Source: a virus
Length of the DNA: 29,774 bases
Direction: 5' to 3' (one strand)
Virus record (IMG/VR): IMGVR_UViG_3300030012_000076
Span: 1 to 29,774 of that record
Positions 1,148 to 15,507 of this stretch are shown piece by piece. The position numbers and the translations under genes are program-made. Each line of letters opens with the position of its first letter. Position 1 is the stretch's first letter. The notes under the pieces are model-generated. The model had not been told where the DNA came from and did no database searches. It saw only the letters and a list, made by a program, of their open reading frames with translations.

Positions 1148-1998
1148 TAGCCTGTCGCCTCTAGTTCTGACATCATATCATATAAACGTGCGGCACCAAT
1201 ATCTCTATCTCCACCGCCTGCACCTCGAACAGCCTTGGCTGTTAAAACAAACTCACCGTCGGAGAGTCTTGCTGGCACAGAATCCGATGTTCCTGTGCCC
1301 GGTCCGTCAACCTCACCACCGCCTGCATGTACATCCCCACCATGAGCATACCCAGAAGAACGAGCAACAGGCCGATATGGGTCAGTGTAGTAATTGTACC
1401 CTGGATCTTGAAGCTCTCTAAGTTCATCTGCATATTGTTTCATATCCGTAGGGTCATTCATATCATACCTTTTTCCAGACCTGCCTACAAGTGTGCCCTT
1501 AACTTCGCCCGGTCTTGTGTCGGGCATACCAGAACCGCCCTTTTCTTCTTCTTCTTCACCAAACATGCCGCCAGCAAGTGCTAACGCACCAGCACCCAGC
1601 CCAAGTTTTGTGCCCATGCTCATGTCGTCAAACATTGAGAAGATGCCTTTTTTCTCTGGAGACACGGAAGATTTAAGACCAGTGCGAAGAAACTCTCCAC
1701 TTCCTCTACTGCCTACGGGCAAGGAAGGTGCACCCATGCCAAGCATAGACGTACCTTTGTAACTTGGAAGAAGACTGCCAATGCCTTTACCTGCGCCCAT
1801 GCCAAAGCTTGCTCCCTTGGCAAGTGAACCACCCGCGTAACCCATAGCACCAGCAAGCAAAGCGTCTTCAATATCTCCACCACCAGCAAGTGAACCAATC
1901 CCAGAACCAAGGGCCGCGCCCATTGGGCCACCAAGAGCAAACCCAACAACTCCACCAATAGGAGCAAGCATTTTTTTGAATGACTTAAATAAACCCAT
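1147..1998 (-). CDS. Glycine-rich putative ejection protein with C-terminal SDGEFVLTAKAVRGAG module
   Basis: 283 residues. Residues 12-40 and 50-70 form Gly/Ala zipper helices (GGVVGFALGGPMGAALGSGIG) likely to enter a membrane; a second hydrophobic Gly/Ala helix lies near 130-147, followed by an acidic run EEEEE. The last 58 residues are a distinct module: GPGTGTSDSVPARLSDGEF, then VLTAKAVRGAGGGDRDIGA and a terminal helix. I recall this C-terminal module as very common in uncultured marine phage proteins of varied N-termini, without a known function. Location between the nozzle-like protein and other ejection-type proteins supports an internal virion or DNA-ejection role. The function remains inference. 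Confidence 0.7.
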   Translation of the reverse strand: MGLFKSFKKMLAPIGGVVGFALGGPMGAALGSGIGSLAGGGDIEDALLAGAMGYAGGSLAKGASFGMGAGKGIGSLLPSYKGTSMLGMGAPSLPVGSRGSGEFLRTGLKSSVSPEKKGIFSMFDDMSMGTKLGLGAGALALAGGMFGEEEEEKGGSGMPDTRPGEVKGTLVGRSGKRYDMNDPTDMKQYADELRELQDPGYNYYTDPYRPVARSSGYAHGGDVHAGGGEVDGPGTGTSDSVPARLSDGEFVLTAKAVRGAGGGDRDIGAARLYDMMSELEATG

Positions 1999-2225
1999 TA
2001 CGCAACCTTTATTGTGCCGCTGTCGTTATACAAGGACCCAGTTTCAAGGCCCGTCGCTGAAGTAGGCAGATCCGTCAGCGTTAGTTTAGTCCCCCGCATC
2101 TCACCCGGATTACGCTCCTGCTCGATAAAAGTCTGTATAGAACGCACAAGATCCGCCATATACTGTTGTGTATACTCGATCGGTGGTTCTGGGAGCCTTG
2201 GTGGTGCAACCTGATTACTTGACAT
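1998..2225 (-). CDS. Small conserved tail-associated protein
   Basis: 75 residues: a proline-rich N-terminus (PPRLPEPPIEYT), a helix with QQYMADLVRSIQTFIEQER, and a C-terminal segment with LPTSATGLETGSLYNDSGTIKV that looks like a short beta motif often seen in phage fibre or tail proteins. It starts by a TAATG overlap with the end of the nozzle-like gene and its stop overlaps the next start, so it is translated with both. The helix followed by a small beta tip suggests a trimeric needle or plug element, but nothing in the sequence proves it; P22 gp26 is much longer. Function not recognised. Confidence 0.7.
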   Translation of the reverse strand: MSSNQVAPPRLPEPPIEYTQQYMADLVRSIQTFIEQERNPGEMRGTKLTLTDLPTSATGLETGSLYNDSGTIKVA

Positions 2226-4366
2226 TATCTTCTACCATCCTGCCTTATGTCTACACGAGGGCTACCTAGTTTCCATTTAGACCCTAATGCATTTGATTCT
2301 ACACGAAGTGCAAAGGAACGTCCACGAACTCTTAGGTCTAGCTGTTCTGTAAACTCTTCTACTGGTGTTGTTTGTGTGCGGCTGGTTGTACCAGACTGCG
2401 TGTTGTCAAAGTCTGCTCCCGGATTGTTGCGCGCCTTAACTGTAAATGTAGCCTGCGGGGAGGCTAAGTTAGTTGACCCATCAAAAGTTAAATCGGGTAT
2501 GACTTTACGCAGATATGTAAACTTATCCCCGTCACCTATATCAATGGCAGCAGATTCAATAAACGAGTTCATCGCAGAACCGTCGTCGTCGTAGCCAAGC
2601 TCGTGGTTGTAAATATAATTATCACCTACAGCTATGGGAAAGGTCCGAGTTCCACGATCCAACCATGCAGTTCTTTCAAGCGTACCAAAGTACCATACCT
2701 TCTCACTGTAGTTGTATGTGACATATCGGTTGTTGTCACTGGAACTAGCGGACGGATAGAACCATGTTACTTCACTAAACTCAGAGTTGATGCCTGCAAC
2801 AACCTTGTCTTTTTGTGCGAGGTTAAAGTCTAAGAAAACCTTGTCCTTAACTGTGCAGGGAAGTGTTTGTGTCTGCCCAGCATAAACATAAAATGTATCA
2901 ATACCCATCCAGAAAACAAAATCTTCTGTCGATACCGCAGCGTTTGGACTCATAATAGTAATGTTACTGGACAGTTGCTGTAGGCCAAAGGTAAATGGTG
3001 GACCAATAAATCGCATGGATGTAAGGGCGGTGTCTGTCCACACCAGTATCTCACGCTTTGTTTCTACGGCCTGCATGAAGGTTGACCCTGCACCCAAGCG
3101 CAAGTCACCCGCTGTGTTAGTAGAAGTAGGATACCATTCAGTTGGGTTCTCTTGATCAGAAAAACGAATAATCAGCGGGTCTTGAATACCATCGCCATCT
3201 GTTGCAGATGCGCTAGAGTTCAACCCATCGGCACCAAAAGCAATAACATGCCTGTCGCGGTCAGAAACAAGAACCTGTTTGGCTACAGTTGGGACGCTTC
3301 GCTTTGTGCCTGTAATTGTGTTCAGCTTTACAGCACGAGTGGACAGGTTGTTTGTTCTGTCCCAATAGTAAATCTCATCATCGCGTGGATTGATAAGCAG
3401 GTCTTCCCCAAAGTTATCATGTGACCACAAACGAATCTGTGTCGTAGTTGTTAGACCACCAGATGCTGCGCTGCCCCAGCCAGAGAAATCATTCGCCGGG
3501 TCAGCATTACCTAGTGCCAGTCTTACAACAGAACCATCAGCGTGTGTTGTAGCTGTAGTACCAGAGTGACCGCGTGTGCAGCTTGTCAGGTCGTTGCTTG
3601 ATATACCACCAACTAGAATAAGTTCATTGCCAATTAGTACAACATCACTAGCCACAATGCCTGTGGTGCTTGTTACAGTGATTGTTGTGTCTCCAGCGGT
3701 TAACGTACCGCCCTCGTTTACGGTTGTCTGCAATGCACCGTTGGTTACACCATAGTAAAGACCTGCACCCCAACCTGTTCCACCAACAGTGGTGTCAAGT
3801 CCCACGTTTATCTGATACGCACCCACGGTGCTTGAACCACCGTTGCCTGAGTCTGAAGAGTTAGCGGCTACTGCGCTAGTAATTTCGTAAGTATCGGCAT
3901 CTACAACCCGTGCAACTTGATATTCTTGATTAAGAACAGTAGCAGTGATTACACCGCCAAGGCTTGCCGCTCCAGAAAAAGTAACAAAATCGAACTGAAA
4001 GGCACCATGCCCTACGTCTGTAACAGTGATAGTGGTTGAGCCATTTGTTGCAGCGAAGGTAACATCCCCCGCCGCAGTAGTGTTACGAAGCGGAGTTATG
4101 TTATTCAGGCTTTCACCTTCTTCTATATAGTATTTAAGATGGGTGCCTATGCCCAAATAGTCAGAACCGTCTAGCGCAATCCAGTTATGTAACGCACGGG
4201 CAGAGCCATCATAGGTGCTTTCTGTGTACTTTTCCCAACCGCCTATTTTTTCAGGATAGCCAAACCGAAATCTAATTTTGTCACAGTCGCGCCAACCCCC
4301 TTCGTTTGAATACGAAGTGACCTCTCTGTTAATACCTGGCTTAAACTGTAACTTAGTTAAGGGCAT
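2225..4366 (-). CDS. Tail nozzle / P22 gp10-like structural protein
   Basis: 713 residues. The N-terminus MPLTKLQFKPGINREVTSYS followed by GGWRDCDKIRFRFGYPEKIGGW is the signature I associate with short-tail hub/nozzle proteins of marine podovirus contigs, comparable in role to P22 gp10 or T7 gp12. The body is beta-rich with propeller-like blocks (DRDRHVIAFGAD, REILVWTDTALTSMRF, VSTEDFVFWMGIDTFYVYAG, RYVTYNYSEKVWYFG). Residues about 95-290 look like an insertion of beta repeats (GSTTITVTDVGHG, GDTTITVTSTTGI) absent from shorter homologues. The C-terminus (LRVRGRSFALRVESNALGSKWKLGSPRVDIR) is the expected beta end. It lies between fibre genes and ejection proteins, consistent with forming the distal tail tube. 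Confidence 0.75.
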   Translation of the reverse strand: MPLTKLQFKPGINREVTSYSNEGGWRDCDKIRFRFGYPEKIGGWEKYTESTYDGSARALHNWIALDGSDYLGIGTHLKYYIEEGESLNNITPLRNTTAAGDVTFAATNGSTTITVTDVGHGAFQFDFVTFSGAASLGGVITATVLNQEYQVARVVDADTYEITSAVAANSSDSGNGGSSTVGAYQINVGLDTTVGGTGWGAGLYYGVTNGALQTTVNEGGTLTAGDTTITVTSTTGIVASDVVLIGNELILVGGISSNDLTSCTRGHSGTTATTHADGSVVRLALGNADPANDFSGWGSAASGGLTTTTQIRLWSHDNFGEDLLINPRDDEIYYWDRTNNLSTRAVKLNTITGTKRSVPTVAKQVLVSDRDRHVIAFGADGLNSSASATDGDGIQDPLIIRFSDQENPTEWYPTSTNTAGDLRLGAGSTFMQAVETKREILVWTDTALTSMRFIGPPFTFGLQQLSSNITIMSPNAAVSTEDFVFWMGIDTFYVYAGQTQTLPCTVKDKVFLDFNLAQKDKVVAGINSEFSEVTWFYPSASSSDNNRYVTYNYSEKVWYFGTLERTAWLDRGTRTFPIAVGDNYIYNHELGYDDDGSAMNSFIESAAIDIGDGDKFTYLRKVIPDLTFDGSTNLASPQATFTVKARNNPGADFDNTQSGTTSRTQTTPVEEFTEQLDLRVRGRSFALRVESNALGSKWKLGSPRVDIRQDGRR

Positions 4367-4373
4367 GTATCAC

Positions 4374-5099
4374 CTATGTCGGTTGCGGCACTGAAGAAGA
4401 ACTGTAAAAAGTACCACCTAAAACTCGCGCACCTTTACCAAAGCTAGGAGGGTTGGTAACTTTAAACCCAAACCATGTGTATCCATTGGAATTTGCGGTG
4501 CTCACATTATCTGTAGCCCATGTAATAATTCCCGTGTTATAGCTTCCACCCGTATAAGTAATTGAACTTATAAGACCTGCGGTAGTCCAAACTATGTCGT
4601 AACTTCTTGACCCACCTGTACTGCCGCTAGACCCAGCATTCCATGCGGCAACTATGTTAGTTACATTGCTATCAGTTGTGCCGCCGTACAAAACAACATT
4701 GTTGCTGTACGCAGAGGTGTCTTCGTTTTGTGAAATTGTAATACTTGCACTGGTTATATAGCCTTGCCCCGCACGAAATACAGGTTGCCAAGCCACAGCA
4801 TTTGCAGATGCAGAAATACTAAAAGGTGCGTCCGTGCTGCTTTGGTCATTCAAGCCAAACCCATTTTCGTTAAACAGATAAGACATCCAAACCCGTATGT
4901 CTCTGTTGCCTGACTGAGAACTACCGTAGAAGTCCTTAATTCCAATCTCACCGCTTGTCGGTATACTAGCTGTGGCTACAGTATCAGGCACACCTTCAGT
5001 GCCGTTGCGATAATAGTCCTTCAAGCTGTGCGGTGCGGTTCCGCCATACTGTGAAGCTATTTCGCTTAAACTAATTGCGCCAGAACTTGGAAGAGCCAT
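4374..5099 (-). CDS. Virion structural / tail fibre protein (MALPSSG family)
   Basis: 241 residues. The N-terminus MALPSSGAISLSEIASQYGG followed by SLKDYYRNG and IPTSGEIGIKDFYG is a short repeated pattern (SG-x-ISLSEI / SGEIGIKDFYG) that I recall at the start of many marine phage structural proteins, probably an attachment region. Residues about 80-241 are Ser/Thr/Gly-rich beta sequence with regular aromatic positions, as in fibre tips. No catalytic motif is visible. It begins one base before the end of the preceding 263-residue fibre gene and precedes the nozzle-like gene by seven bases. Likely a receptor-binding or decoration component; exact place in the virion unknown. Confidence 0.65.
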   Translation of the reverse strand: MALPSSGAISLSEIASQYGGTAPHSLKDYYRNGTEGVPDTVATASIPTSGEIGIKDFYGSSQSGNRDIRVWMSYLFNENGFGLNDQSSTDAPFSISASANAVAWQPVFRAGQGYITSASITISQNEDTSAYSNNVVLYGGTTDSNVTNIVAAWNAGSSGSTGGSRSYDIVWTTAGLISSITYTGGSYNTGIITWATDNVSTANSNGYTWFGFKVTNPPSFGKGARVLGGTFYSSSSVPQPT

Positions 5100-5891
5100 T
5101 TAAATTGTCCCTGAAGCTGTAATGTCATCCGCAGAGACTATTTCGCCTGTAGTTTTTATTTTTGCATAGCCAGTGCCGTTATAACTAAACACAAGTTCGT
5201 TACTGACTACACTTATGGTCCAGCTACCTAGTGTAAAAGTACTGCCGCTAATGGGAACAGTAGAGAAGCTTAGAGTGCCTGAACCATTTGTTTGCAGGTA
5301 CTGACCGTTTGTACCGTCAGCCGTAGGATAGTTTAGGCTTGCTGCTTGCAGTTTAGATATGGCAACCGTGCCTGTGCCATTGGGTGTAATGTTAATATTT
5401 CCGTTGCTGGTAGAGACAATCGAGTTGCCATTAACGTCCAAATTTCCGCCAAGCTGGGGAGTCGTGTCCCCAACAACATCAGAAGGCAACACACGAACCT
5501 GTGCGCCGGAACCTGCGCCATCACCGTATATCCAAGCAGAAGCCCCTGCTAAAATGGTCACATTACCACCAGAGCCTTGAGTAAATACAACAGACTGTGA
5601 GGTGGTGTTGTTTACAAGATACAGCTTTGACTGGTCGTTAGGGGTAATAGTGACCGTGTTTGTTCCTGACGGCGAACCAGATAACACCAACACTTTATAG
5701 TGACCGTCTGACAAAGCCCCGTCTGTTGTGGTAAGTGTTGTGGTTGTACCCGTTAAAGTAAGCGTAACAACTCCATTTAACACACGATCAATAATGTCAA
5801 AGTTTGTGTTGACTGTTGTGCCCCAGGCTCCAGCCTGTTCACCAGATCCCGGCTTTTCAATGCCTGAGTTTGAAGTAAATGTACTTGCCAT
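5100..5891 (-). CDS. Tail fibre protein
   Basis: 263 residues. The N-terminus MASTFTSNSGIEKPGSGEQA followed by GAWGTTVNTNFDIIDRVLNG is a recognisable virion-anchoring segment of marine phage fibres. The middle has a beta block (VTITPNDQSKLYLVNNTTSQSVVF) and a collagen-like or beta-helical Asn/Gly repeat (PQLGGNLDVNGNSIVSTSNG, NINITPNGTGTVAI) typical of trimeric fibre shafts. The C-terminus (GSWTISVVSNELVFSYNGTGYAKI) resembles a small beta tip found in many phage proteins. It abuts the repeat-rich gene upstream and the MALPSSG gene downstream without gaps. Structural role is well supported by style; receptor specificity cannot be read. Confidence 0.75.
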   Translation of the reverse strand: MASTFTSNSGIEKPGSGEQAGAWGTTVNTNFDIIDRVLNGVVTLTLTGTTTTLTTTDGALSDGHYKVLVLSGSPSGTNTVTITPNDQSKLYLVNNTTSQSVVFTQGSGGNVTILAGASAWIYGDGAGSGAQVRVLPSDVVGDTTPQLGGNLDVNGNSIVSTSNGNINITPNGTGTVAISKLQAASLNYPTADGTNGQYLQTNGSGTLSFSTVPISGSTFTLGSWTISVVSNELVFSYNGTGYAKIKTTGEIVSADDITASGTI

Positions 5892-6608
5892 TTATGCCAC
5901 CTTGTTTGTCCATGTTTCAGACGATGTGCCTGCGTTTATTTCAGTCCAACTATCGCCTGTGTGAGTTATGGGTGTCCAGTTTTCAGTTGTTGCACCAGCG
6001 TCAATCTTTACCCACAGTATATCACCATTCGTAGTTATAACAAATAGACTGTCCATTGTTTGTGAAGTGGTTAACAAAAAACCACCTAAAGTAGACATGT
6101 CGAAAGAACTATCTAACGAAGCAACGCCTCTAAGCAATAAGCCCCCTGTAGATGTTTGAATAAAGTTTGCATCCAGTTCTGCCACACCTGACGCGATCAA
6201 CTGTTGTGTGGTAGTTTGCGTAAAGTTTGCATCAACACTAGAGCTTCCTGATGCGATAAAAATCGGTGTAGTGGTTTGCGTGAAGTTAGCATCAACACTT
6301 GCAACACCAGAGGCTGTAAAGTTTGGCGCGGTAGTCTGCGTGAAGTTAGCATCTACTTCCGCAACGCCCACAGCTATGAGTTGTTGTGTTGTAGTTTGCG
6401 TAAAGTTACTGGATAAATCTACTTCACCTATAAGAGTACCCGCAGCGGCAGATATCTTTACAAACAGTGCTTCTAATTCTAACACCCCTGAAAAGGTAGC
6501 GTTAGCGGCGGTTGTTTGCGTAAAATTTGCATCAACGGTCTCAGTCCCAAATAGCAAAATGCCATCGGTAGCGATACTGTTTTCAGCTATCGCATAAGAA
6601 CCAAACAT
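5892..6608 (-). CDS. Repeat-rich fibre protein with nine 20-residue VDANFTQTT units
   Basis: 238 residues. After a short N-terminus (MFGSYAIAENSIATDGILLFG), residues 25-200 consist of nine consecutive units of exactly 20 residues whose core is VDANFTQTT-x5-ASGVAS, the outer units being the most degenerate. Regular length with alternating hydrophobic positions suggests a beta-solenoid or stacked trimeric shaft. The C-terminal 38 residues have spaced Trp motifs (ENWTPI, DSWTEI, ETWTNK) repeated about every 13-15 residues. The start overlaps the previous stop (TAATG). No homologous family is claimed. Copy number is a plausible source of length variation among relatives. Confidence 0.75.
   Translation of the reverse strand: MFGSYAIAENSIATDGILLFGTETVDANFTQTTAANATFSGVLELEALFVKISAAAGTLIGEVDLSSNFTQTTTQQLIAVGVAEVDANFTQTTAPNFTASGVASVDANFTQTTTPIFIASGSSSVDANFTQTTTQQLIASGVAELDANFIQTSTGGLLLRGVASLDSSFDMSTLGGFLLTTSQTMDSLFVITTNGDILWVKIDAGATTENWTPITHTGDSWTEINAGTSSETWTNKVA
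6009..6536 (-). repeat. 60-bp tandem coding repeat, nine units
   Basis: On the plus strand a block of the type gtagtttgcgtaaagtttgc recurs at about 6210, 6270, 6330, 6390 and 6510, always at multiples of 60 bases. Inner units are nearly identical at the DNA level and the outer ones only at protein level. It encodes the 20-residue units of the protein at 5892-6608, so it is a coding repeat in frame, not an array of spacers. Confidence 0.85.
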
Positions 6609-6820: not shown

Positions 6821-7936
6821 CTATAGTTCCGCACTAAATGCTAAAAACGCATCGGTGCTTTCAGCCCTCATAAAACAAGCATCTCCGCTTGTAAATCCTG
6901 CACCACTTGAAATTAAATTTATTAATGCGTTTTCAGCAGTAAACCCGCCTGCCGTGGGTACACTTGTGCCGTTAGCGTCTGATGTAACTCGTATTGAATA
7001 ATCACTTGCTGTACCACTCTGCTCAATAGCTGATGGTGCTGCTCTCATAGGAATTGGAAATTGAAGCATGTAAGCACCTGTTTGAGTGCCATCCATGTTA
7101 CCAATACAAGGGAAAGTCTCGTTTGCTGACATACCACCATTAGGTGCTGGCGTTCTATAGTAATAACGTAAACACCTTTGATACTCATCCCCAAATAACC
7201 GATGTTCAAATGGTGTAGCCTGTTCGCCTACTTCAAGCTGTACGCCAGTTATTTGCCACGTTGCATTTGTTGTTGTAGCAACTGCATTAGCTGTATGTCC
7301 AACAGCACTTTTTGCTGTAGCAAATGTTTCCCAACTAGAGTTAGAGCCTGATGTGTAATTACTGCCAGCCATCAAAAACCAATTAAGCTGTAGCCCAGCC
7401 GTATTGTCATCAGTTATGCCGCTGGCAGTATTCGCGTCAAATGTAATACTTTTTCTTTCCCAAGTGTTTGCGCTATTAATAGTGTAAGCCTGACCAAACA
7501 CTTTGTTAGCGTCATAAATATAGGCGTTGAATCCATAAGTAGCCGCAACACTACTTTTTACATAAAATGAAACAGTAAATTTTTTAGCGGCAGATGTACC
7601 AAAGCCTAATGACTGTAAGTCTTGACCCTCTGCCCTGTATATTACCCTTAACTCTTCATCAGCCGCAACTGCACTTTCAGCGGTAGTTGTTTGTAGTTTT
7701 AGTGAATTAGAAAACCCGCTTGGCCCGTCTGCCTCTTGTGTTACTGTAAGGCGTAACTCATCTTCATTTACAAAGTTAAATAGAAATCTGTCACAAGTTA
7801 TGTACCCACTTGTATGCTGTGCCGTTTCACTTACGCTTCTTTGGCTCACGTTCATTGCGCCATTGATAATCAAATTCCTGTTTGACAGGCTTGATTGCGA
7901 ACCTATCAGTGCGGCTAGTTCTGCTGCTTTACTCAT
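6821..7936 (-). CDS. Large tail fibre / putative carbohydrate-binding receptor protein
   Basis: 371 residues starting MSKAAELAALIG at 7936; this start overlaps the previous stop as ATGA and has GGAG seven bases upstream, better than an earlier in-frame codon at 7954. Residues 17-60 (LSNRNLIINGAMNVSQRS, GYITCDRFLF) match the NLIINGAM-x-V-x-QR...DRW/F pattern of phage fibre proteins with a CBM-like jelly roll. Residues about 120-240 continue the jelly roll (FTVSFYVKSSVAATYGF, WERKSITFDANTASGITDD) and end in the familiar WQITGVQLEVGEQATPFEHR followed by CLRYYYRT. The C-terminal 100 residues form a separate beta domain, probably the tip. A role in glycan recognition at the cell surface is inferred from the fold. 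Confidence 0.75.
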   Translation of the reverse strand: MSKAAELAALIGSQSSLSNRNLIINGAMNVSQRSVSETAQHTSGYITCDRFLFNFVNEDELRLTVTQEADGPSGFSNSLKLQTTTAESAVAADEELRVIYRAEGQDLQSLGFGTSAAKKFTVSFYVKSSVAATYGFNAYIYDANKVFGQAYTINSANTWERKSITFDANTASGITDDNTAGLQLNWFLMAGSNYTSGSNSSWETFATAKSAVGHTANAVATTTNATWQITGVQLEVGEQATPFEHRLFGDEYQRCLRYYYRTPAPNGGMSANETFPCIGNMDGTQTGAYMLQFPIPMRAAPSAIEQSGTASDYSIRVTSDANGTSVPTAGGFTAENALINLISSGAGFTSGDACFMRAESTDAFLAFSAEL

Positions 7937-8310
7937 GCTAGGTCTCCATGCCAAGTGCCAAACACATCATCCATATCATTGCCACTGCCGCTGTCATGCA
8001 AGCAATCTATTGTTGTTTGACTTGATGTTCTAGCTGTAGAACCAGCAATATCTGCTTGAGTACCATTTAAATTACAAGCAGTAGTTATAGAATAGTTAGC
8101 TGAGTTCATATTATTAGAAAATGCAGTTGTGTAATTACCTGTTCCGTTATCTGTCAAAGAACCAATATTAAAGCTATCATCAATACTAACAGTGCCACTG
8201 CCATCAAAATGCACCCACGCTTTTGCACTTCCCTCCGCCACATATGTCATGGCAACAGAGTTGTTACCGCTGGCATCTTTCAGGGTGTTTACTCTCAGTT
8301 CGCTTGCCAT
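7933..8310 (-). CDS. Fibre-tip paralogue B3 (SFNxxSxTD / GDLA family)
   Basis: 125 residues; third tip gene of module B. It has the family core: GSAKAWVHFDGSGT, then DDSFNIGSLTDNGTGNYTTA, FSNNMNSANYS, and the terminal HGDLA. The VxxGSAKxW segment is shared specifically with paralogue A3 at 11218-11595. The family resembles small beta-sandwich tip domains common in marine phage fibres; receptor contact is inference. ATG at 8310 overlaps the stop of the gene upstream (TAATG), and its own TGA overlaps the ATG of the large fibre gene. The codons for GDLA supply the Shine-Dalgarno GGAG of that next gene. Confidence 0.75.
   Translation of the reverse strand: MASELRVNTLKDASGNNSVAMTYVAEGSAKAWVHFDGSGTVSIDDSFNIGSLTDNGTGNYTTAFSNNMNSANYSITTACNLNGTQADIAGSTARTSSQTTIDCLHDSGSGNDMDDVFGTWHGDLA
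7934..7947 (-). repeat. Junction repeat copy 1 (GDLA codons + Shine-Dalgarno)
   Basis: Minus strand GGAGACCTAGCATG: codons for Gly-Asp-Leu-Ala, then ATG of the next gene (6821-7936) overlapping the TGA stop. GGAG lies seven bases before the ATG. Confidence 0.8.
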
Positions 8311-8702
8311 TATGCTAGGTCTCCTACAGCCACGGTATTAAATCTACAATCAGTACGAGTCCAACTACTATTGTAAGAAACGGCTCTTGCTTGAGTAGTT
8401 GTTTGACCACTTATACTGCCTTGAGTATTTCCATAGTTATCGTCTATAGCAACGTGGGCGTAATTAGCGTTTGAGAAAGCGTTACTCCAATTTGGTCTAG
8501 CATAACCTGTGTCATAATCTGTAACGCTTGAGACGTTAAAACTATCTCCAAGTGCGCCACCACTTAAATTATAATTTCCTACAAATCCTTTTACCATTCC
8601 CTGCTGTAACTGCATAGTCGCAGAGCCACCCTCGCTGGTAATCGTAATGTTGCCAGCCGCTGTGTTACCTCTTAGGTCATCTACTTTGAGTATGCTTGCC
8701 AT
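8310..8702 (-). CDS. Fibre-tip paralogue B2 (GDLA family)
   Basis: 130 residues from the ATG at 8702 (MASILKVDDLRGNTAAGNIT), chosen because it overlaps the previous stop as TAATG and follows GGAG ten bases upstream; an earlier in-frame start at 8732 would lie inside the upstream gene. Residues 16-40 (TAAGNIT, EGGSATMQLQQGMVKGF) match paralogue A2 (TAGSISV, EGNSTTTNLQQGLCK) better than any other copy. The core GDSFNVSSVTDYDTGYARPN and SNANYAH are followed by a variable beta region and VAVGDLA. Likely a receptor-contacting tip domain, by analogy within the set. Confidence 0.75.
   Translation of the reverse strand: MASILKVDDLRGNTAAGNITITSEGGSATMQLQQGMVKGFVGNYNLSGGALGDSFNVSSVTDYDTGYARPNWSNAFSNANYAHVAIDDNYGNTQGSISGQTTTQARAVSYNSSWTRTDCRFNTVAVGDLA
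8311..8324 (-). repeat. Junction repeat copy 2
   Basis: Minus strand GGAGACCTAGCATA followed by ATG of B3: same GDLA codons ending in TAA; GGAG is ten bases from the start. Confidence 0.8.
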
Positions 8703-9091
8703 TATGCTAGGTCTCCTAAAACAGCAATACATACATCTGAATCTACATAACCATTAGTGGCATGATTTAGAACTCCGATTCCAGTTCTACCACTTGTGTA
8801 TGCGTCTGGAACACCTGTCCAGTTAGTGACAAGTGTGTAACTACTATTATCGTTACAAGAACCTACAGAGGAATACGTTGCGCCGTTCATATTGTTTGTA
8901 AAATTAAAACCATACTGCCCTGTGCCATCATCCAAAACTGAACTGACGTTAAAACTGCCGTGTTGAGTAGTCGTTGAACCACCACTGCTATCCAATGATG
9001 ACCAAGCCTTCGCTGCACTCTGCTTCGTCAATCCAACAGGGCCAGTACCAGCCTTATCTGCAATAGTATCTACATTCAGTACACTGGTCAT
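8702..9091 (-). CDS. Fibre-tip paralogue B1 (GDLA family)
   Basis: 129 residues from the ATG at 9091 (MTSVLNVDTIADKAGTG); GGAG lies eight bases upstream, and the earlier in-frame start is a TTG at 9103 with no better signal. The N-terminal DTI...LTKQSAAKAW is shared with paralogue A1 (DTI...LTKQHAAKSW), as is FNFTNNM after the core HGSFNVSSVLDDGTGQYG. It ends VLGDLA. First of three tip genes following the MPYIG gene at 9088-9546, with a four-base ATGA overlap. Probable fibre tip; the region between core and C-terminus is the most divergent between copies. Confidence 0.75.
   Translation of the reverse strand: MTSVLNVDTIADKAGTGPVGLTKQSAAKAWSSLDSSGGSTTTQHGSFNVSSVLDDGTGQYGFNFTNNMNGATYSSVGSCNDNSSYTLVTNWTGVPDAYTSGRTGIGVLNHATNGYVDSDVCIAVLGDLA
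8703..8716 (-). repeat. Junction repeat copy 3
   Basis: Identical to copy 2, joining B1 to B2 (GGAGACCTAGCATA then ATG). Confidence 0.8.
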
Positions 9092-9546
9092 ACGATGCTC
9101 CAATACCCGTTAACAGTCACGGTTGCAGACTGTGTGATTGGCCCTGCACTCACGCCATTCTCATCTGCATCAATAGTGATGTCTGCGCTGATGGTCTGAC
9201 CGTTCAAACGGATGATGCTGTTGTTGCCCTTGAATGGGTAGCGTGTGTCTGATTCAGTTTTGGTGTACGAATTAGCAACAGAAAAGGTGTCGTATATGAC
9301 CATCTCAACCACGTCATTGAGGCTTGCCCCTGTGACCAAGACTACTGTTGTGCCTGTTGTAGCAGCATAGTCAGTCCCTGGTTTAAGCAAAACACCGTTC
9401 TGGTACACATCCATGTACAGACTGTCTTGATAGGTCAAGACTTTACTGTCAGCATCGCTGCCGCTAAAAGAGGTTTGCCCCGCAGTTGCCTGATAAACAA
9501 AGCGATTGCGAAAACCTACTGCTGGGGATTTACCTATGTATGGCAT
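9088..9546 (-). CDS. Module-B fibre head protein (MPYIG family)
   Basis: 152 residues. MPYIGKSPAVGFRNRFVYQA followed by GQTSFSGSD and VYQNGVLLKPGTDYAATTGT with TVVLVTGASLNDVVEMVIYD is the widespread phage fibre domain in which the strand pair ends in NGV-x-L-x7-DY-x7-GTTV. The C-terminus (IRLNGQTISADITIDADENG, then AGPITQSATVTVNG) is a small beta module shared with the paralogue at 12421-12870 (FRTNAQSLTSNTTILATENA, TGPFTVASGVTLTV). A strong AAGGAAG Shine-Dalgarno precedes the ATG. Probably joins the tip proteins encoded just downstream to the tail. Confidence 0.75.
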   Translation of the reverse strand: MPYIGKSPAVGFRNRFVYQATAGQTSFSGSDADSKVLTYQDSLYMDVYQNGVLLKPGTDYAATTGTTVVLVTGASLNDVVEMVIYDTFSVANSYTKTESDTRYPFKGNNSIIRLNGQTISADITIDADENGVSAGPITQSATVTVNGYWSIV

Positions 9547-9555
9547 TAGTCTTCC

Positions 9556-9876
9556 TTATGGTTTAGTAGGCCAAGTAACATCGTCTAATGAAGTAGCGGT
9601 CTTGGTTATATCTCTTAAATCTTGCCTATATTTTACTTGAGCAGATGACATAGTAAGGTCACTAGATGCCCACCAATCAGTTTCTGCAATAAGTCTATTA
9701 CGTTCTTCTCGTAGTAATCGCATAGGCTCTGCTTTTTTTAACTCATCTATTTTTGCATTAATTGCATCATTAGATGGCTGAGAAATATCTTTGCTATGCC
9801 ACTCAATTTCTGTGCCTCTAACAGTCCACTCAGCGGTTGGGGCTAATTGTACTAAGGCTGTGCCAATATCAGTCAT
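9556..9876 (-). CDS. Phage tail assembly chaperone-like protein
   Basis: 106 residues. The C-terminal half, LREERNRLIAETDWWASSDL followed by VKYRQDLRDITKTATSLDDV and TWPTKP, matches the R-x-x-RN-x-L-x-x-TDW...YRQ-x-LRD...WP-x-P pattern of the phage tail assembly chaperone family (Phage_tail_APC, as I recall it). Such proteins help fold or assemble fibre proteins and are usually encoded next to fibre genes, as here. The N-terminus (TALVQLAPTAEWTVRGTEIE) is a small beta segment. ATGA overlap with the preceding 150-residue gene, with GGAG upstream of the start. Whether it is part of the virion or only an assembly factor cannot be told. Confidence 0.75.
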   Translation of the reverse strand: MTDIGTALVQLAPTAEWTVRGTEIEWHSKDISQPSNDAINAKIDELKKAEPMRLLREERNRLIAETDWWASSDLTMSSAQVKYRQDLRDITKTATSLDDVTWPTKP

Positions 9877-10325
9877 CCAGCAATCTCCATAAGTGTAATT
9901 GTAAAATGACCATAAGAGGGATATGAAATGTAAGTAGTGTTGCTTGAGGAACCCACTTTTCCGTACACGGTATAAGTCGTTGCGCTTGTCGTGGCGGGGC
10001 TATCTAAAACTTGAGTTGTAGATGGTATGCGTAATTGATCGTTAACTGTATACATAAGTGCATTTGCTGTCCCAGTTCCTAAATTAGTTGAACCGCGATA
10101 AACAGTCACATGAGACTCCCCGCCCGAACCGCTAAGATACCAGCCTGGAATACTAACAAGACATAAAATTTTACTGCTAGTAGATGTTGGAGTTATAGCC
10201 TGCGAAAGACCCGTTGTTACAAAACTTGTGCTATTTGTATTAAAATCAGTTGTGATAAAATTACTAACAACTTGAAGCACAGAACCTTCTGGCAGACCCG
10301 CATCACGAATTTTAGTTAACGCCAT
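9873..10325 (-). CDS. Fibre protein with small beta tip domain
   Basis: 150 residues. N-terminal MALTKIRDAGLPEGSVLQVV is a short attachment segment frequent in marine phage fibres, followed by a beta domain (TSTSSKILCLVSIPGWYLSG, SHVTVYRGSTNLGTG, TYTVYGKVGSSSNTTYIS) ending HFTITLMEIA. The pattern 'SSKIL...V...R..T.LG...YTVYGK...HFTITLMEI' is that of a fibre tip I have seen repeatedly in such contigs. Its ATG follows GGAGTAAGTAG and its stop overlaps the chaperone-like gene, which probably assists its folding. Not a GDLA family member. Confidence 0.7.
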   Translation of the reverse strand: MALTKIRDAGLPEGSVLQVVSNFITTDFNTNSTSFVTTGLSQAITPTSTSSKILCLVSIPGWYLSGSGGESHVTVYRGSTNLGTGTANALMYTVNDQLRIPSTTQVLDSPATTSATTYTVYGKVGSSSNTTYISYPSYGHFTITLMEIAG

Positions 10326-10348
10326 CTACTTACTCCTCAACAAGGGAA

Positions 10349-10372
10349 GCCCCACGCATTATGCGTAAGGGC
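10349..10372 (-). other. Imperfect hairpin at end of 123-residue gene
   Basis: The minus strand reads GCCC-TT-ACGCAT-A-ATGCGT-G-GGGC across the stop codon of the upstream gene and into the 33-base gap before the next gene. Both arms pair with one small internal loop. There is no T run after it, so it is a poor intrinsic terminator; it may stabilise or process the mRNA, or be incidental. Confidence 0.3.
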
Positions 10373-10730
10373 TATCACCAAGTACACTTGTGTCCCAAGC
10401 TGCTTTTAGCTTTGCAATTGTATCTGCATTAGTAATCGCAGATGCTGCTGGGGCATCACGAAGGGCTTTCTTCTTATTTACAGAAGCGGTCTTTGCATCT
10501 GCATCATCAGCTTCAAGTGCCTTCATGTACACTACGTCTTCTGCTTCAAGCAGAGGTCCACGAACTTCACGGATCTTATCTTTAAAGATGACTTTGGCTG
10601 CGTCCATATCTTCTGATATGACTTTGCCACTCAATGACCATGCACCACGAAAGTGACGGTCAGAAGGAACGGTAGCTGTAGAAGCATCTATCTGATTCCC
10701 GTCCTTGTCTACGATGTATGTTGTTGCCAT
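10359..10730 (-). CDS. Tail fibre assembly-like protein with PxxRxFRxAW motif
   Basis: 123 residues. Residues 21-45, TVPSDRHFRGAWSLSGKVIS then EDMDAAK, carry the P-x-x-R-x-F-R-x-AW...I-x-x-DM-x-x-A pattern of a small phage family located beside fibre genes. Residues 46-110 are helical (FKDKIREVRGPLLEAEDVVY MKALE; VNKKKALRDAPA; TIAKLKAAWDTSVLG), with the L-RD and K-AW spacing typical of tail-assembly chaperones. A fibre-folding role is inferred from both. The gene follows the 159-residue gene by 11 bases, and an imperfect hairpin overlaps its stop. Confidence 0.65.
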   Translation of the reverse strand: MATTYIVDKDGNQIDASTATVPSDRHFRGAWSLSGKVISEDMDAAKVIFKDKIREVRGPLLEAEDVVYMKALEADDADAKTASVNKKKALRDAPAASAITNADTIAKLKAAWDTSVLGDSPYA

Positions 10731-10741
10731 TGGGTTTCTCC

Positions 10742-11221
10742 TTATGCGGCTACAGTTTTATCAGTGGCTAGGTCTTCACTAATCTTCCAAGCATTACGCC
10801 ACTCTCTTGTTGCCGGAAGCTGTTCTTTCTTGCATATTACCAGTTTTGGCTTATTACCGCTATCCCACTCACGCCACACATGTTGTGGGCAGTCTTTCAT
10901 TATGAGATATTCTAAGGCTTGCTCTTCTGTCATCGCCTCAACAGGCTCTGTGTTGTGCAACAGATAACCACGAGTATGTTTCTTAAAGTCGGGCTGCGCC
11001 TCATCCTTTGCAAGTTCCCAGTAAACTTGCACTGGCGGTAAGATGCCGCCCTGCAAAGCGCAAGCCATCCAGTTGGGGTCAGGTACAAGTATCTTAGCGC
11101 ACTCGTCTATGCTGTCTTCGTAGACCACACGGTAGTCTGACTGATAGGCTTCTAGGTTTTCTTTTGCCCAGCACAGTCTATCCCATAAGTGTGTGCCTTG
11201 AAATTCAGGTGTCTGCATCAT
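10742..11221 (-). CDS. Fibre-associated protein ending in a PxxRxxRxAW motif
   Basis: 159 residues. The N-terminal 100 residues (THLWDRLCWAKENLEAYQSD; DPNWMACALQGGILPPVQVY; PDFKKHTRGYLLHNT) form a globular Trp- and acid-rich domain that I do not recognise. The C-terminus KKEQLPATREWRNAWKISED repeats the P-x-x-R-x-F/W-R-x-AW motif found near the start of the next gene. Position after tip paralogue A3, with an ATGATG start overlapping that gene's TGA, suggests a fibre-folding partner or a fibre-head subunit. Function is not established. Confidence 0.65.
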   Translation of the reverse strand: MMQTPEFQGTHLWDRLCWAKENLEAYQSDYRVVYEDSIDECAKILVPDPNWMACALQGGILPPVQVYWELAKDEAQPDFKKHTRGYLLHNTEPVEAMTEEQALEYLIMKDCPQHVWREWDSGNKPKLVICKKEQLPATREWRNAWKISEDLATDKTVAA

Positions 11222-11595
11222 GCGAGGTCTCCGTGTACTAAAGTAGCATTAACGGCTCTATCCCGATACGTTCCACCAGAATCTGCAACCGTATATCTGT
11301 GTGTTGTTGTTGTGGATGCCGCCCTTGAGTTAGATGTTATAACACATTCATTGGCATCTTCGTTACCGGCACTTCCACCAATTACTTGTGTAGCCGCACT
11401 TAAAGCGTTGGAATATGTAACTGTTGTGTCACCCGTTCCATTATCTGTAATACTTGATACGTTAAAACTACTATTAAGAACATGAGATGCGTTATGTCGT
11501 TCCCAAACCTTCGCACTACCATTGACAACAAACTGCGTATCAAGCGACCCTGCGGTGCTGTGTTCTAGTTGGTCTGCTACAATCTTTCCAGCCAT
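11218..11595 (-). CDS. Fibre-tip paralogue A3 (GDLA family)
   Basis: 125 residues: MAGKIVADQLEHSTAGSL, then VVNGSAKVWERH, core NSSFNVSSITDNGTGDTTVT with YSNALSAATQ, and VHGDLA at the end. VxGSAKxW pairs it with B3. The segment between core and terminus (GNEDANECVITSNSRAASTT) is unlike the other copies, as expected for a receptor-contacting surface. The start overlaps the previous stop as TAATG; its GDLA codons carry the GGAG used by the 159-residue gene. Function as fibre tip is inference from the family context. Confidence 0.75.
   Translation of the reverse strand: MAGKIVADQLEHSTAGSLDTQFVVNGSAKVWERHNASHVLNSSFNVSSITDNGTGDTTVTYSNALSAATQVIGGSAGNEDANECVITSNSRAASTTTTHRYTVADSGGTYRDRAVNATLVHGDLA
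11219..11232 (-). repeat. Junction repeat copy 4
   Basis: Minus strand GGAGACCTCGCATG: CTC variant of the Leu codon; joins A3 to the 159-residue gene with an ATGATG start. Confidence 0.8.
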
Positions 11596-12056
11596 TATGC
11601 GAGGTCTCCTGCTACATTGTAGGTAACATTATCTTTATCCGCGTCCGAACCGCCATTTCTAAGACGAATTACAAAAGTTCCTGCTGCCACACTGTTAGAA
11701 GAACCATGACAGGTGCTACTTGAAACTGTATCCCAATCTGCTCCAATAGATAGCGAATAGTTTGCATTGCTCATGTCGTTGGCTATGGTTACGGTATAAT
11801 TTCCCAAACCGTTATCTGTAATGCTTGTTGTATTAAAGCTGTCATCTAGTGTAGTGTCAGACCCTTCAAAGTGACCCCAGCATTTACACAACCCCTGCTG
11901 AAGATTAGTTGTCGTACTATTGCCTTCACCCACAACAGAGATAGAACCAGCAGTTGTCTTGCCTGTTAACTTATCTGTCTTCAGACCACCATTATCCGTA
12001 ACCAAAGAGGCGTTGCCTGAGATGTCATTGATATTTGTTACTTCAATGGTACTCAT
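11595..12056 (-). CDS. Fibre-tip paralogue A2 (GDLA family)
   Basis: 153 residues, the longest of the six because of an extended N-terminus (MSTIEVTNINDISGNASLVT, then GGLKTDKLTGKTTAGSISVV). EGNSTTTNLQQGLCKCWGHF pairs it with B2. Core DDSFNTTSITDNGLGNYTVT and ANDMSNANYSL, then a variable stretch, and YNVAGDLA. Three cysteines (two in LCKCW, one in STCHGSS) are unusual for the set. ATG at 12056 overlaps the previous TGA (ATGA). Probable receptor-binding tip. Confidence 0.75.
   Translation of the reverse strand: MSTIEVTNINDISGNASLVTDNGGLKTDKLTGKTTAGSISVVGEGNSTTTNLQQGLCKCWGHFEGSDTTLDDSFNTTSITDNGLGNYTVTIANDMSNANYSLSIGADWDTVSSSTCHGSSNSVAAGTFVIRLRNGGSDADKDNVTYNVAGDLA
11596..11609 (-). repeat. Junction repeat copy 5
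   Basis: Minus strand GGAGACCTCGCATA then ATG of A3; CTC variant as in copy 4. Confidence 0.8.
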
Positions 12057-12424
12057 GCTAGGTCTCCATGAACCGTACTTATCATCAATTCTACATTTGT
12101 TAAAGAATTTGATTCGTAATGCCTTAAATGTCCTTTTGCGGCAGTGTTGTTTGACCCCGCTGCACTTCTATTAAAAGCGTCATTAGTACTTGTCGCATCA
12201 GAACAAAGCTGAATTGCAAAATTTCCACTATCCATATTGTTAGTAAAATTAGTTTCATATTTTCCTGTAGCTAAATCCGTTAAACTTGCCACGTTAAAAC
12301 TATCCCGTAATGCAATAGTTCCAGTGCCATCAAAATTAGCCCAAGACTTTGCAGCATGTTGTTTAGTTAACGTAGCCGCACCGCCACTGGTGTTCTGAAT
12401 TGTATCTGCTTTTAACGTACTCAT
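12053..12424 (-). CDS. Fibre-tip paralogue A1 (GDLA family)
   Basis: 123 residues: MSTLKADTIQNTSGGAATLT then KQHAAKSWANFDGTGTIALR, core RDSFNVASLTDLATGKYETN with FTNNMDSGNFA, and STVHGDLA. The DTI...LTKQxAAKxW N-terminus pairs it with B1. It is the first tip gene after the MPYIG gene of module A and starts inside that gene's last codons (ATGA-type overlap). Beta-sandwich fibre tip is inferred; nothing catalytic is present. Confidence 0.75.
   Translation of the reverse strand: MSTLKADTIQNTSGGAATLTKQHAAKSWANFDGTGTIALRDSFNVASLTDLATGKYETNFTNNMDSGNFAIQLCSDATSTNDAFNRSAAGSNNTAAKGHLRHYESNSLTNVELMISTVHGDLA
12054..12067 (-). repeat. Junction repeat copy 6
   Basis: Minus strand GGAGACCTAGCATG: joins A1 to A2, same arrangement as copy 1. 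Confidence 0.8.
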
Positions 12425-12870
12425 AGCGTCACCAATGTACCACCAGATTCAACGGTGAGTGTCACACCGCTGGCTACTGTAAATGGTCCTGTTACGTTAG
12501 CGTTCTCTGTTGCCAGAATGGTTGTATTGGATGTAAGAGATTGTGCGTTGGTACGAAACATACCACCCGCCTTAAAGTTTCCCTTGTTTTCTGCGGGGGG
12601 AACAATCGTGCCTGCTTGCGGGGCAAGATAATTTACAAAGATATTGCCTGTACCGGAGGACGGAGCGGCGGTAAATGTGAGAGTAGTTCCGTCTGGTATT
12701 GTATAAGCGGCTGTGTCTTGCACTACGCCATCAACAGACACTAACACATCTTGCACAGAAGATACTGTAGTGTTCAATGTAAACGTAGTGTCGCTACCGT
12801 CTCCATTAAACCTTTGTACAGCTTTGACGGCCTGATAAGACCCTGGAACTTTTTGACCTATATACGGCAT
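12421..12870 (-). CDS. Module-A fibre head protein (MPYIG family)
   Basis: 149 residues: MPYIGQKVPGSYQAVKAVQR then DGSDTTFTLNTTVSSVQDVL with VSVDGVVQDTAAYTIPDGTT and LTFTAAPSSGTGNIFVNYL. This is the common fibre domain with NGV/DGV hairpin, matching the gene at 9088-9546 in both halves. The C-terminus (FRTNAQSLTSNTTILATENA, then TGPFTVASGVTLTVESGG) is the shared small beta module. It precedes tip genes A1-A3, mirroring module B, so it probably links those tips to the virion. Confidence 0.75.
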   Translation of the reverse strand: MPYIGQKVPGSYQAVKAVQRFNGDGSDTTFTLNTTVSSVQDVLVSVDGVVQDTAAYTIPDGTTLTFTAAPSSGTGNIFVNYLAPQAGTIVPPAENKGNFKAGGMFRTNAQSLTSNTTILATENANVTGPFTVASGVTLTVESGGTLVTL

Positions 12871-12879
12871 TATCCATCC

Positions 12880-13206
12880 TTATGAGCTAATAGTATCTAC
12901 AACAGAAACCCAGACATCTGCGCTGCTTGCCGTATCGCTCTGCACTTTTAACACATCATTGTTTTGCATTACTATTTTTGCCCCGCCGTCTAATACTTGC
13001 AATGCTGATCCAACAGGTATAGGCGCATCTTTAATAATGTAGTAATCATTAGACCCATCGTTAATAAACACATCCATCAAGATTTGAGTGGTTGTTACAT
13101 TAGCAATGTTAATGCCTATTAGAGCATCATCAGAGTTTGCTGTACGCATAGTCACAGCAGCCGTGCCTACGTTTCGTGCTATGTTTCTTTCAAAATCCTG
13201 CGCCAT
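12880..13206 (-). CDS. Small virion structural protein
   Basis: 108 residues, beta-rich: NIARNVGTAAVTMRTANSDD, LIGINIANVTTTQILMDVFI, YYIIKDAPIPVGSALQVLDG, KIVMQNNDVLKVQSDTASSA. The IGxNxANxxxxQIxxDV...YxIKxAPIPxGSALxVLDG pattern is one I recall as a frequent small structural protein of marine phages next to fibre genes; its position in the particle is unknown. It lies between the 180-residue fibre gene and the module-A head gene with gaps of about ten bases on both sides. Confidence 0.65.
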   Translation of the reverse strand: MAQDFERNIARNVGTAAVTMRTANSDDALIGINIANVTTTQILMDVFINDGSNDYYIIKDAPIPVGSALQVLDGGAKIVMQNNDVLKVQSDTASSADVWVSVVDTISS

Positions 13207-13216
13207 AATTTACTCC

Positions 13217-13759
13217 TTAGAGGGCAATCGCCATAGCCACTGCGAAACCAGCCGTTGCTCCTGTAGCTGGCAAATTAGTTAACTGTGACCCATCAACTGC
13301 GGGTAGCCTAGCAGAACCGTCAAGTATAACGATCTTGTTTGCTGATGTGCCCGTGTCTATTCTTGCAACAGGCACTGTTCCAGAAGCTATGTTACTGCCA
13401 TTTAAAGCGGTCAACGCGCTACCGTTTGCTGCTACCAGATTACCACTAGCATCTAAAAAAGACATTTTCTCTGCTGGCAACGTGCAGAAGATGGTGCGAG
13501 TGCCTGAAGACCAGCTCACCGCGCTATCAGAATTACTAGACTGCAAAATTGTGGTACGAGCCAAGGTTGTACCAGATGCAGTATAAGTTCCAATGCCTAT
13601 CTCAAAGTCAGTTCCATCTGTACAAGCGTAGAAAGTAGTGTTTCCATCGCCTATTTGACTAAACGCTTCAAAACCAGTAAATGCCCCCGCAAGCGTATAA
13701 GTACCTGTGCCTGTGGTGGTGGTAGTTTCTTTTATTCGGTCTTTTATGACCAGTGCCAT
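13217..13759 (-). CDS. Tail fibre protein (KDRIKETTTTTGTGT family)
   Basis: 180 residues. MALVIKDRIKETTTTTGTGT, YTLAGAFTGFEAFSQIGDGN, then TDFEIGIGTYTASGTTLART with TILQSSNSDSAVSWSSGTRT is a highly typical N-terminal domain of marine phage fibres. The C-terminal half (NGSALTALNGSNIASGTVPV, then DGSARLPAVDGSQLTNLPA) is a low-complexity shaft with the 'DG-S-x-LTNLPA' repeat. A hydrophobic tail AGFAVAMAIAL ends the protein. The start overlaps the preceding stop. Role as a fibre is well supported by composition and neighbours. Confidence 0.75.
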   Translation of the reverse strand: MALVIKDRIKETTTTTGTGTYTLAGAFTGFEAFSQIGDGNTTFYACTDGTDFEIGIGTYTASGTTLARTTILQSSNSDSAVSWSSGTRTIFCTLPAEKMSFLDASGNLVAANGSALTALNGSNIASGTVPVARIDTGTSANKIVILDGSARLPAVDGSQLTNLPATGATAGFAVAMAIAL

Positions 13760-14856: not shown

Positions 14857-15507
14857 CTATACTATTGTTATATTTCCAACCATGCTGCTGTGAACAGTAC
14901 ACTGATATACTAACGAAGAATCACTAGGCTCGTGTGGCACGATAAACTGAGTTAGCCCAGCAGTGCTGTTATAGTTGTCCGTAACCCCTGTGGTAAAAGC
15001 AGAACCCCCAGAGGCTGTTCGTATCTGTAAAGGATGGCTGCTGACGTAGGAAGAATTATCAATTAAATATGTGTGGCCTTTGTAAAACGTAAAGTTAGGA
15101 TTATTGCCAGCAGTAGCTCCAGGGCCAGAGAATGTATAAGCGGAACCCGTAGCCGCTGTTGTTGTGTATTTAGTTATAGGACCACTAACTTCATCATTTA
15201 TTCGTATCCAAATCCCACCATGAGCAAAATACATGCCAGCGTTTGCGTGGACATGTGCAATTGCACCATGATAAGTTGATGCACTGGGCAAGTCAGTCAA
15301 AGCAGCGTAATAAAAAACAATTTTGTTTGCACCAGAGCTAACGTCAATAACACCGTTTGTATCAATGATATCAGTTAGTGTAGTGCCATTCCCCAACGCA
15401 TTGTAGATTTCGTTGAAGTTATCATTAATCTTATCTGCGCCGTCACGCAGAGTATCACCAGTGCCATCGTTTGCGGCAGAGCCAATTCCTACTGTTTGTT
15501 TTGCCAT
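14857..15507 (-). CDS. Virion protein with C-terminal cupredoxin-like domain
   Basis: 216 residues. The N-terminus (KQTVGIGSAANDGTGDTLRD, then GADKINDNFNEIYNALGNG) is the INDNFNEIY anchoring segment of many phage structural proteins. Residues about 112-216 resemble a cupredoxin: SAYTFSGPGA, NPNFTFYKGHTYLIDNS, SSHPLQIRT, FIVPHEPSDSSLVYQCTVHS and SMVGNITIV. The residues H158, C203, H206 and M209 give a full type-1 copper ligand set with C-x2-H-x2-M spacing, the spacing of amicyanin. Copper binding is inferred, not shown. Encoded between the two adaptor-like genes, so probably a virion component displayed near the neck or tail. Confidence 0.7.
   Translation of the reverse strand: MAKQTVGIGSAANDGTGDTLRDGADKINDNFNEIYNALGNGTTLTDIIDTNGVIDVSSGANKIVFYYAALTDLPSASTYHGAIAHVHANAGMYFAHGGIWIRINDEVSGPITKYTTTAATGSAYTFSGPGATAGNNPNFTFYKGHTYLIDNSSYVSSHPLQIRTASGGSAFTTGVTDNYNSTAGLTQFIVPHEPSDSSLVYQCTVHSSMVGNITIV

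Follow-up and report, generated by a model that had tools for sequence, protein, structure and literature searches.

In Kuttervirus phages (CBA120, S117; Ackermannviridae), it has been shown that receptor modules are swapped between the tailspikes TSP1, TSP3 and TSP4 at the conserved motif GTTAVSL, that conserved N-termini govern assembly of the tailspike complex, and that the branched tailspikes of Ackermannviridae are linked by Gp10-like domains (PMC8432352, PMC11414711). This receptor-module swapping is the closest known mechanism for the locus described here, which lies in a stretch of marine phage DNA of 29,774 nucleotides (IMG/VR virus record IMGVR_UViG_3300030012_000076, positions 1-29,774; hereafter the window, meaning the whole stretch analysed) and consists, on the minus strand, of two modules, A and B, each made up of one hub gene (A0, B0) followed by three short tip genes (A1 to A3, B1 to B3). 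The locus probably encodes a two-hub, six-socket array with exchangeable receptor-binding tips, in which every tip is divided at an AKAW motif into an N-terminal address that carries the identity of its slot and a C-terminal knob. Like Kuttervirus, the array would place several receptor-binding proteins on one virion, keep their N-terminal assembly parts conserved and swap C-terminal modules between positions at a conserved motif, the breakpoints here being located at AKAW and at the GDLA junction with which the tips end. On the other hand, Kuttervirus possesses large beta-helix spikes with XD/TD domains, whereas the array consists of single knobs of ~125 amino acids with addresses of 24-56 amino acids, and it differs further in its two hubs, each with three addressed slots, its position code common to both modules, its chained ribosome-site junctions and a cross-slot swapping that involves all six slots.

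The nearest named phage, Puniceispirillum phage HMO-2011 (NC_021864), contains the same block, its hubs being 91% and 88% identical to those of the window, while identity is 82% for Ax, the conserved gene that follows the tips of module A, and 77% for the next gene. The genes of this block are annotated as tail fibre proteins, and HMO-2011 differs in that slot 2 of both modules holds non-tip fibres (in module B, a C1q protein and a chaperone). Microcystis phage Mel-JY33 and Nostoc phage Nsp-JY18 possess an A0-like hub C-terminus, three tips and homologues of Ax and the next gene, two of the Mel-JY33 tips ending in GDLA with the same GGAGACCTCGCATGA; they differ in having a single module, in the stretch examined, and a long hub of 422 amino acids. 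The arrangement is not described in the papers on HMO-2011-type phages that were read or listed, a search that reached only the smaller part of the subscription journals. Receptor-module swapping is already known, and the new elements are an address/knob boundary that is sharp to a few residues, the two parallel three-slot sets and the position code. With so sharp a separation, it can be tested directly on small recombinant proteins how several receptor binders are kept apart and in order by one phage. The boundary also provides a rule by which the host-specific part of a marine phage genome can be recognised, and it may let phages trade host-binding parts without breaking assembly.

Two modules of one hub and three tips

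The original prediction, made from the letters of the window, had proposed two heads starting with MPYIG, each accompanied by three tips ending in GDLA. All eight open reading frames of the modules were confirmed as open at these places, both hubs beginning with MPYIG and all six tips terminating in GDLA. The genes and their addresses are as follows.

12421..12870, minus strand: A0, hub of module A, 149 amino acids; T7-tail-fibre-like N-terminal domain, linker and conserved C-terminal beta region (phrog_18673, E 1.8e-44)
12053..12424, minus strand: A1, tip, slot 1 of module A (PHROG 11355, E 9.9e-21)
12353..12424, minus strand: A1 address, residues 1-24, ending with position-1 code LTKQHA (per-column slot information and slot consensus)
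11595..12056, minus strand: A2, tip, slot 2 of module A; its address is unusually long (PHROG 11355, E 7.7e-15)
11889..12056, minus strand: A2 address, residues 1-56, ending with position-2 code NLQQGL (slot consensus)
11218..11595, minus strand: A3, tip, slot 3 of module A (PHROG 11355, E 3.2e-12)
11515..11595, minus strand: A3 address, residues 1-27, ending with position-3 code FVVNGS (slot consensus)
9088..9546, minus strand: B0, hub of module B, 152 amino acids; homologous to A0 over 133 columns
8702..9091, minus strand: B1, tip, slot 1 of module B (PHROG 11355, E 5.6e-16)
9014..9091, minus strand: B1 address, residues 1-26, ending with position-1 code LTKQSA (slot consensus)
8310..8702, minus strand: B2, tip, slot 2 of module B (PHROG 11355, E 2e-10)
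8595..8702, minus strand: B2 address, residues 1-36, ending with position-2 code QLQQGM (slot consensus)
7933..8310, minus strand: B3, tip, slot 3 of module B; the tip whose structure was modelled (PHROG 11355, E 6.8e-18)
8227..8310, minus strand: B3 address, residues 1-28, ending with position-3 code YVAEGS (slot consensus; code mostly inside a predicted helix, residues 21-27)

These genes are tightly packed: start codons and the stops before them overlap as ATGA or TAATG. B1 likely starts at the ATG overlapping the stop of B0, not at a TTG further upstream. A profile search assigned the six tips without exception to a single family, PHROG 11355 'tail fiber protein' (E 2e-10 to 9.9e-21), and their similarity is therefore far beyond chance. 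The hubs are homologous too, as the profiles of their two families, compared with hhalign, gave a probability of 98.7% (E 5e-16). A0 matched PF03906 (Phage_T7_tail) with an E-value of 2.9e-7 and 30.7 bits, the Pfam gathering cut-off being 25.2; B0 had no direct PF03906 match in the Pfam search, and its residues 11-105 share ~50% identity with pelagiphage tail fibres. The Pfam search of tips and hubs returned no gp9/10-like domain, XD and TD domains not having been searched with profiles of their own.

Slot identity lies in the address

IMG/VR was scanned with A0 and B0, and 80 loci of each were kept from the confirmed relatives; slots were assigned by gene order, and identical proteins were collapsed while related ones remain, the viral contigs not being independent samples. 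Among ~370 distinct tips, slot information reaches up to 1.6 bits per column before AKAW and is about 0.1 bits or less from AKAW on, the drop falling exactly at this motif. The six residues preceding AKAW are common to the same position in both modules (LTKQSA, NLQQGL and FVxNGS for positions 1, 2 and 3), and the ~20 residues upstream of this position code differ among all six slots.

The same division was obtained with local alignment scores, which are independent of the multiple alignment beyond the cut point. N-terminal scores across modules were 0.27 for A1 and B1, 0.44 for A2 and B2 and 0.26 for A3 and B3, as against 0.15-0.22 for the other cross-module pairs; the C-terminal part scored 0.11-0.13 for every slot combination. 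The excess of same-slot over different-slot similarity was 0.271 in the address (permutation maximum 0.006) and 0.000 in the C-terminal part, and across modules the N-terminal excess of same over different position was 0.130, where 300 label permutations gave no more than 0.005; these permutation tests take no account of relatedness among contigs. In the address tree 18 slot changes were counted versus 235 after shuffling, and in the knob tree 211 versus 233.

The position motifs of the original prediction consequently extend to the whole set of distinct tips, and its pairing of A1 with B1, A2 with B2 and A3 with B3 stands for the first 24-56 residues; it fails for whole proteins, since full-length scores in the window make B3 the best match of A1, A2, A3 and B1 alike, and full-length pairing of the tips by position was rejected. 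NFTNNM, which had been read as a motif of A1 and B1, is a family-wide consensus that carries no slot information. Addresses have a pN/pS (the ratio of nonsynonymous to synonymous differences) of 0.35-0.45 with synonymous sites near saturation (pS 0.51-0.60), values that speak for selection acting on the protein.

Position-1 addresses of a second kind (NTSTYVAEGGGATQNTVQ-like) were observed in slot 1 of module B of loci L002 and L015 and in slot 1 of L171, indicating that the addresses themselves have alleles. The A2 address of the window (11889-12056) has ~23 additional residues (VTNINDISGNASLVTDNGGLKTD), and the same long form occurs in L006.

Knobs recur in different slots and modules

Similar C-terminal parts were found in 54 pairs of tips from different slots and in 37 pairs from the same slot. 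For example, the knob of the window's A1 was found again in slot A3 of locus L009 and in slot B2 of L098, and that of B1 in slot A1 of L005. Tip variation takes the form of whole knobs: for 37 cross-slot pairs, the stretch between AKAW and the stop codon has a DNA identity of ~0.85, which falls to ~0.3-0.45 within ~7 codons upstream and immediately downstream. Closely related loci show the same boundaries. L119 and L120 are 99.7% identical over 4090 base pairs (bp) and then diverge at the end of the B1 address, their three module-B knobs all being different. L111 and L113 differ in their A tips and then, from a point 14-15 bases short of the A3 end, share 99.4% identity over 4127 bp. The suggestion of the original prediction that the tips form a reservoir for swapping is borne out by these knob cassettes, which are common to several slots and modules in different phages and have sharp breakpoints.

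Avoidance of the same knob twice in one genome was looked for, with 0 cases seen and 0.7 expected, numbers too small for power. No RVT_1 match that would point to a diversity-generating retroelement was present in the window's record, a fragment of 29.8 kilobases (kb).

The GDLA end as a proposed translation junction

GDLA ends 376 of the 398 distinct tips, and its codons are strongly biased: the terminal glycine is encoded by GGA in 466/482 tips (97%) versus ~22% inside tips, and aspartate by GAC in 93% versus 33% inside tips, while the leucine codon varies freely. In 470/482 tips the stop codon overlaps the ATG of the following gene. Six junctions of this kind lie in the window.

12053..12067, minus strand: A1-A2 junction, GDLA codons and stop reading GGAGACCTAGCATGA; overlaps the likely ribosome-binding site and the A2 start (family-wide codon bias)
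11595..11609, minus strand: A2-A3 junction, same kind (sequence)
11218..11232, minus strand: A3-Ax junction, same kind (sequence)
8702..8716, minus strand: B1-B2 junction, same kind (sequence)
8310..8324, minus strand: B2-B3 junction, same kind (sequence)
7933..7947, minus strand: junction between B3 and the next fibre gene, same kind (sequence)

In a rhizobial relative (L182) the residues change (GRLA, GNLA, GTLA, GALA) and the purine-rich, ribosome-site-like sequence is mostly kept. These changes, together with the GGA and GAC bias, rule out GDLA as a purely protein-level motif; leucine is conserved whichever codon encodes it, which leaves some selection at the protein level on the tip end. 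The simplest reading is that the final tip codons double as the predicted ribosome-binding site of the next gene, in addition to some selection on the protein end. The L182 sequence (positions 1-5637), a metagenome-assembled contig of Cohaesibacteraceae, contains two tip clusters, the first followed by an Ax homologue and the second by a homologue of the next conserved gene.

Constancy of the array among relatives

With at least 591 relatives of A0 and at least 547 of B0, the array is abundant in marine viral data, where it occurs on differing genome backbones. Its components follow one another in a fixed order, from hub A with its three tip slots through Ax, a second conserved gene and a variable socket to hub B, which again has three tip slots and then a variable socket. 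Three tips are present in 53 of 77 distinct A arrays, and in another 18 slot 2 is replaced by other genes, namely a peptidase-S74 fibre, a C1q-domain protein with an assembly chaperone, a fibre with a chaperone, or unclassified genes in the replacements examined; among distinct B arrays, 55/59 begin with three tips. Both modules were always present on sufficiently long contigs, B0 in 42/42 of those having A0 and A0 in 50/50 of those having B0. These layouts strongly support a conserved set of three tips per head, one of the alternatives raised in the original prediction. The socket before hub B holds a tip, a fibre with a chaperone, Bx-like or other genes in relatives, and the one after module B (window 6821..7936) a tip, other fibres or other genes. 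In the window these intervening and flanking positions are occupied as follows.

10742..11221, minus strand: Ax, conserved protein after the three tips, with counterparts in single-module cyanophages (47% identical in Mel-JY33, 82% in HMO-2011)
10359..10730, minus strand: conserved gene after Ax, probably a tail/fibre assembly protein (phrog_20196, an unannotated family, E 1.7e-32; homologue 39% identical at the same place in Mel-JY33)
9873..10325, minus strand: fibre in the variable socket before hub B (phrog_6942, tail fiber)
9556..9876, minus strand: tail assembly chaperone, partner of the 9873-10325 fibre (PF16778 Phage_tail_APC, E 6.6e-11)
6821..7936, minus strand: larger fibre gene after module B, 371 amino acids, in a variable socket (phrog_4492, tail fiber, E 1.3e-53)

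Predicted structure of the tips

A sequence search of the PDB with the tip profile gave no convincing relative. In the confident AlphaFold2 (AF2) model of B3, with a predicted local distance difference test score (pLDDT) of 91.7, residues 21-27 form a short helix that overlaps the position code and is followed by a beta-sandwich of jelly-roll fold. The closest solved structures are the phiAB6 tailspike end (5js4, Z 8.7, 93 residues aligned, 2.8 A), Pam1 (7eea, Z 8.4), LKA1 (4ru4, Z 7.2), H-type lectins and discoidin (Z 5.6-6.2) and the R2-pyocin foot (6ct8, Z 5.5). In the model, the knob thus resembles the R2-pyocin foot and the H-type-lectin-like tailspike ends of phiAB6, LKA1, phi297 and Pam1, where a short helix likewise precedes a jelly-roll of comparable topology (PMC6363177), although sequence identity is ~10% and those domains sit on long single fibres or spikes, whereas the domain of the array is a separate gene in a numbered set. 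By analogy with these folds, each tip probably forms a small trimeric knob that binds sugar.

Origin and mobility of the block

The original prediction had considered the two modules as one duplicated block and had proposed a search for phages with a single module. Such phages were found: in the freshwater cyanophages Mel-JY33 and Nsp-JY18 the stretch examined contains one module, made of a hub (whose C-terminus matches A0), exactly three tips, the first of which has a position-1-like address in both phages, and homologues of the same two downstream genes, Ax and its neighbour. Other configurations exist, as a Manatee Spring phage has a T7-like fibre with three tips, in most bacterial genome matches the tip domain is the end of one long fibre, and in the HMO-2011-type roseophages CRP-1 and CRP-212 one long fibre lies at the array site, with no tip genes listed.

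The sequences support the two-module block as a genuine paralogous unit, probably of ancient paralogy, because of the positional pairing of the addresses, the homology between A0 and B0 and the existence of single-module phages. The latter also suggest that a hub with three tips is the older unit, from which the two-module block arose by copying or import. The paralogy envisaged at the outset is accordingly upheld as an ancient one, in which the second module may have come from copying the first within one genome or from importing that of a relative. Window positions 6821-13363 match HMO-2011 (22 kb examined), with 77-92% identity for hubs and conserved genes, and the window genes flanking this interval have no match in those 22 kb; as judged from such comparisons, the whole array block appears to behave as an exchangeable unit.

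Proposed mechanism and alternative explanations

In the proposed mechanism, each hub would be anchored to the tail, probably via its T7-fibre-like N-terminal domain, and would bear three small tips. The address, composed of ~20 slot-unique residues and the six-residue position code common to both modules, may serve as a docking tag, and the jelly-roll knob, from AKAW to the C-terminus, is the presumed receptor binder, with cell-surface sugars as its likely ligands. Translation of the tips would be chained, the last codons GGA GAC CTN GCA providing a Shine-Dalgarno sequence and the start overlap for the next gene. Knobs would be exchanged in any slot by recombination between AKAW and the GDLA/ribosome-site junction, the address remaining in place, and since an incoming knob carries the GDLA/ribosome-site end, the next gene would stay translated. 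A more tentative extension, which we consider possible, is that the six residues before AKAW are the true docking code and the preceding ~20 name the hub, with six lectin knobs held in fixed places and the AKAW and GDLA boundaries acting as a standard cassette interface to a knob pool common to distinct marine phage lineages.

Several observations weigh against this mechanism. In a few arrays the number of tips is two or four, or slot 1 is replaced; the AF2 model of hub A0 is poor (pLDDT 62); and for the B3 model a Foldseek search against the PDB gave no E-value below 0.001, the best Z score being only moderate (8.7). The tree of the window's addresses, a form of check suggested in the original prediction, groups A1 with B1 and A2 with B2 clearly and does not do so for A3 and B3, whose pairing is clear only family-wide, where the nearest cross-module neighbour of A3 addresses is B3 in 73/77. 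Furthermore, the strong conservation of addresses could partly reflect their use as recombination homology.

Taken further, this last point would mean that the N-terminal parts are conserved solely as homology arms or translation signals and are not docking tags. Address DNA and the GDLA junction do form islands of similarity flanking divergent knobs, which favours homologous recombination, but address amino acids are kept despite near-saturated synonymous sites and the position code is common to the modules at the protein level, making this the least probable of the explanations considered. Simple en bloc duplication, in which copying of the whole four-gene block would have made each tip orthologous to its partner along the full length, accounts for the positional pairing of addresses, the homologous hubs and the existence of single-module relatives. 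It is nevertheless very unlikely, being already refuted for the knobs, which make up most of each gene and have no position signal; the N-terminal region of hub B, in turn, resembles pelagiphage fibres. The original prediction had named a tip closer to that of another phage as evidence against duplication, and for the window's A1 an A3 tip of another phage is indeed a much nearer match than B1, but this comparison tests the knob only.

Another possibility is that each hub end carries one heterotrimer, with one chain per tip gene and addresses that enforce hetero-assembly. T7-type fibres are trimers, and exactly three tips per hub are found in nearly all arrays and in the outgroup phages. C1q domains and S74 fibres, on the other hand, are homotrimeric, and proteins of both kinds, the former with a chaperone, are among the replacements of slot 2 in the 18/77 distinct A arrays. 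The knob fold also matches the homotrimeric R-pyocin foot (PMC6363177). Together, the fold match and the C1q and S74 replacements point to homotrimers over a heterotrimer, which we regard as unlikely.

Other observations in the vicinity of the array

Just downstream of the array, window positions 5892-6608 encode a protein of 238 amino acids that consists mostly of imperfect 20-residue repeats (VDANFTQTTT...SG), derived from 60-base direct repeats. A further gene near the array (window 14857-15507) encodes a protein with a T4 gp9/10-like N-terminal domain (PF07880).

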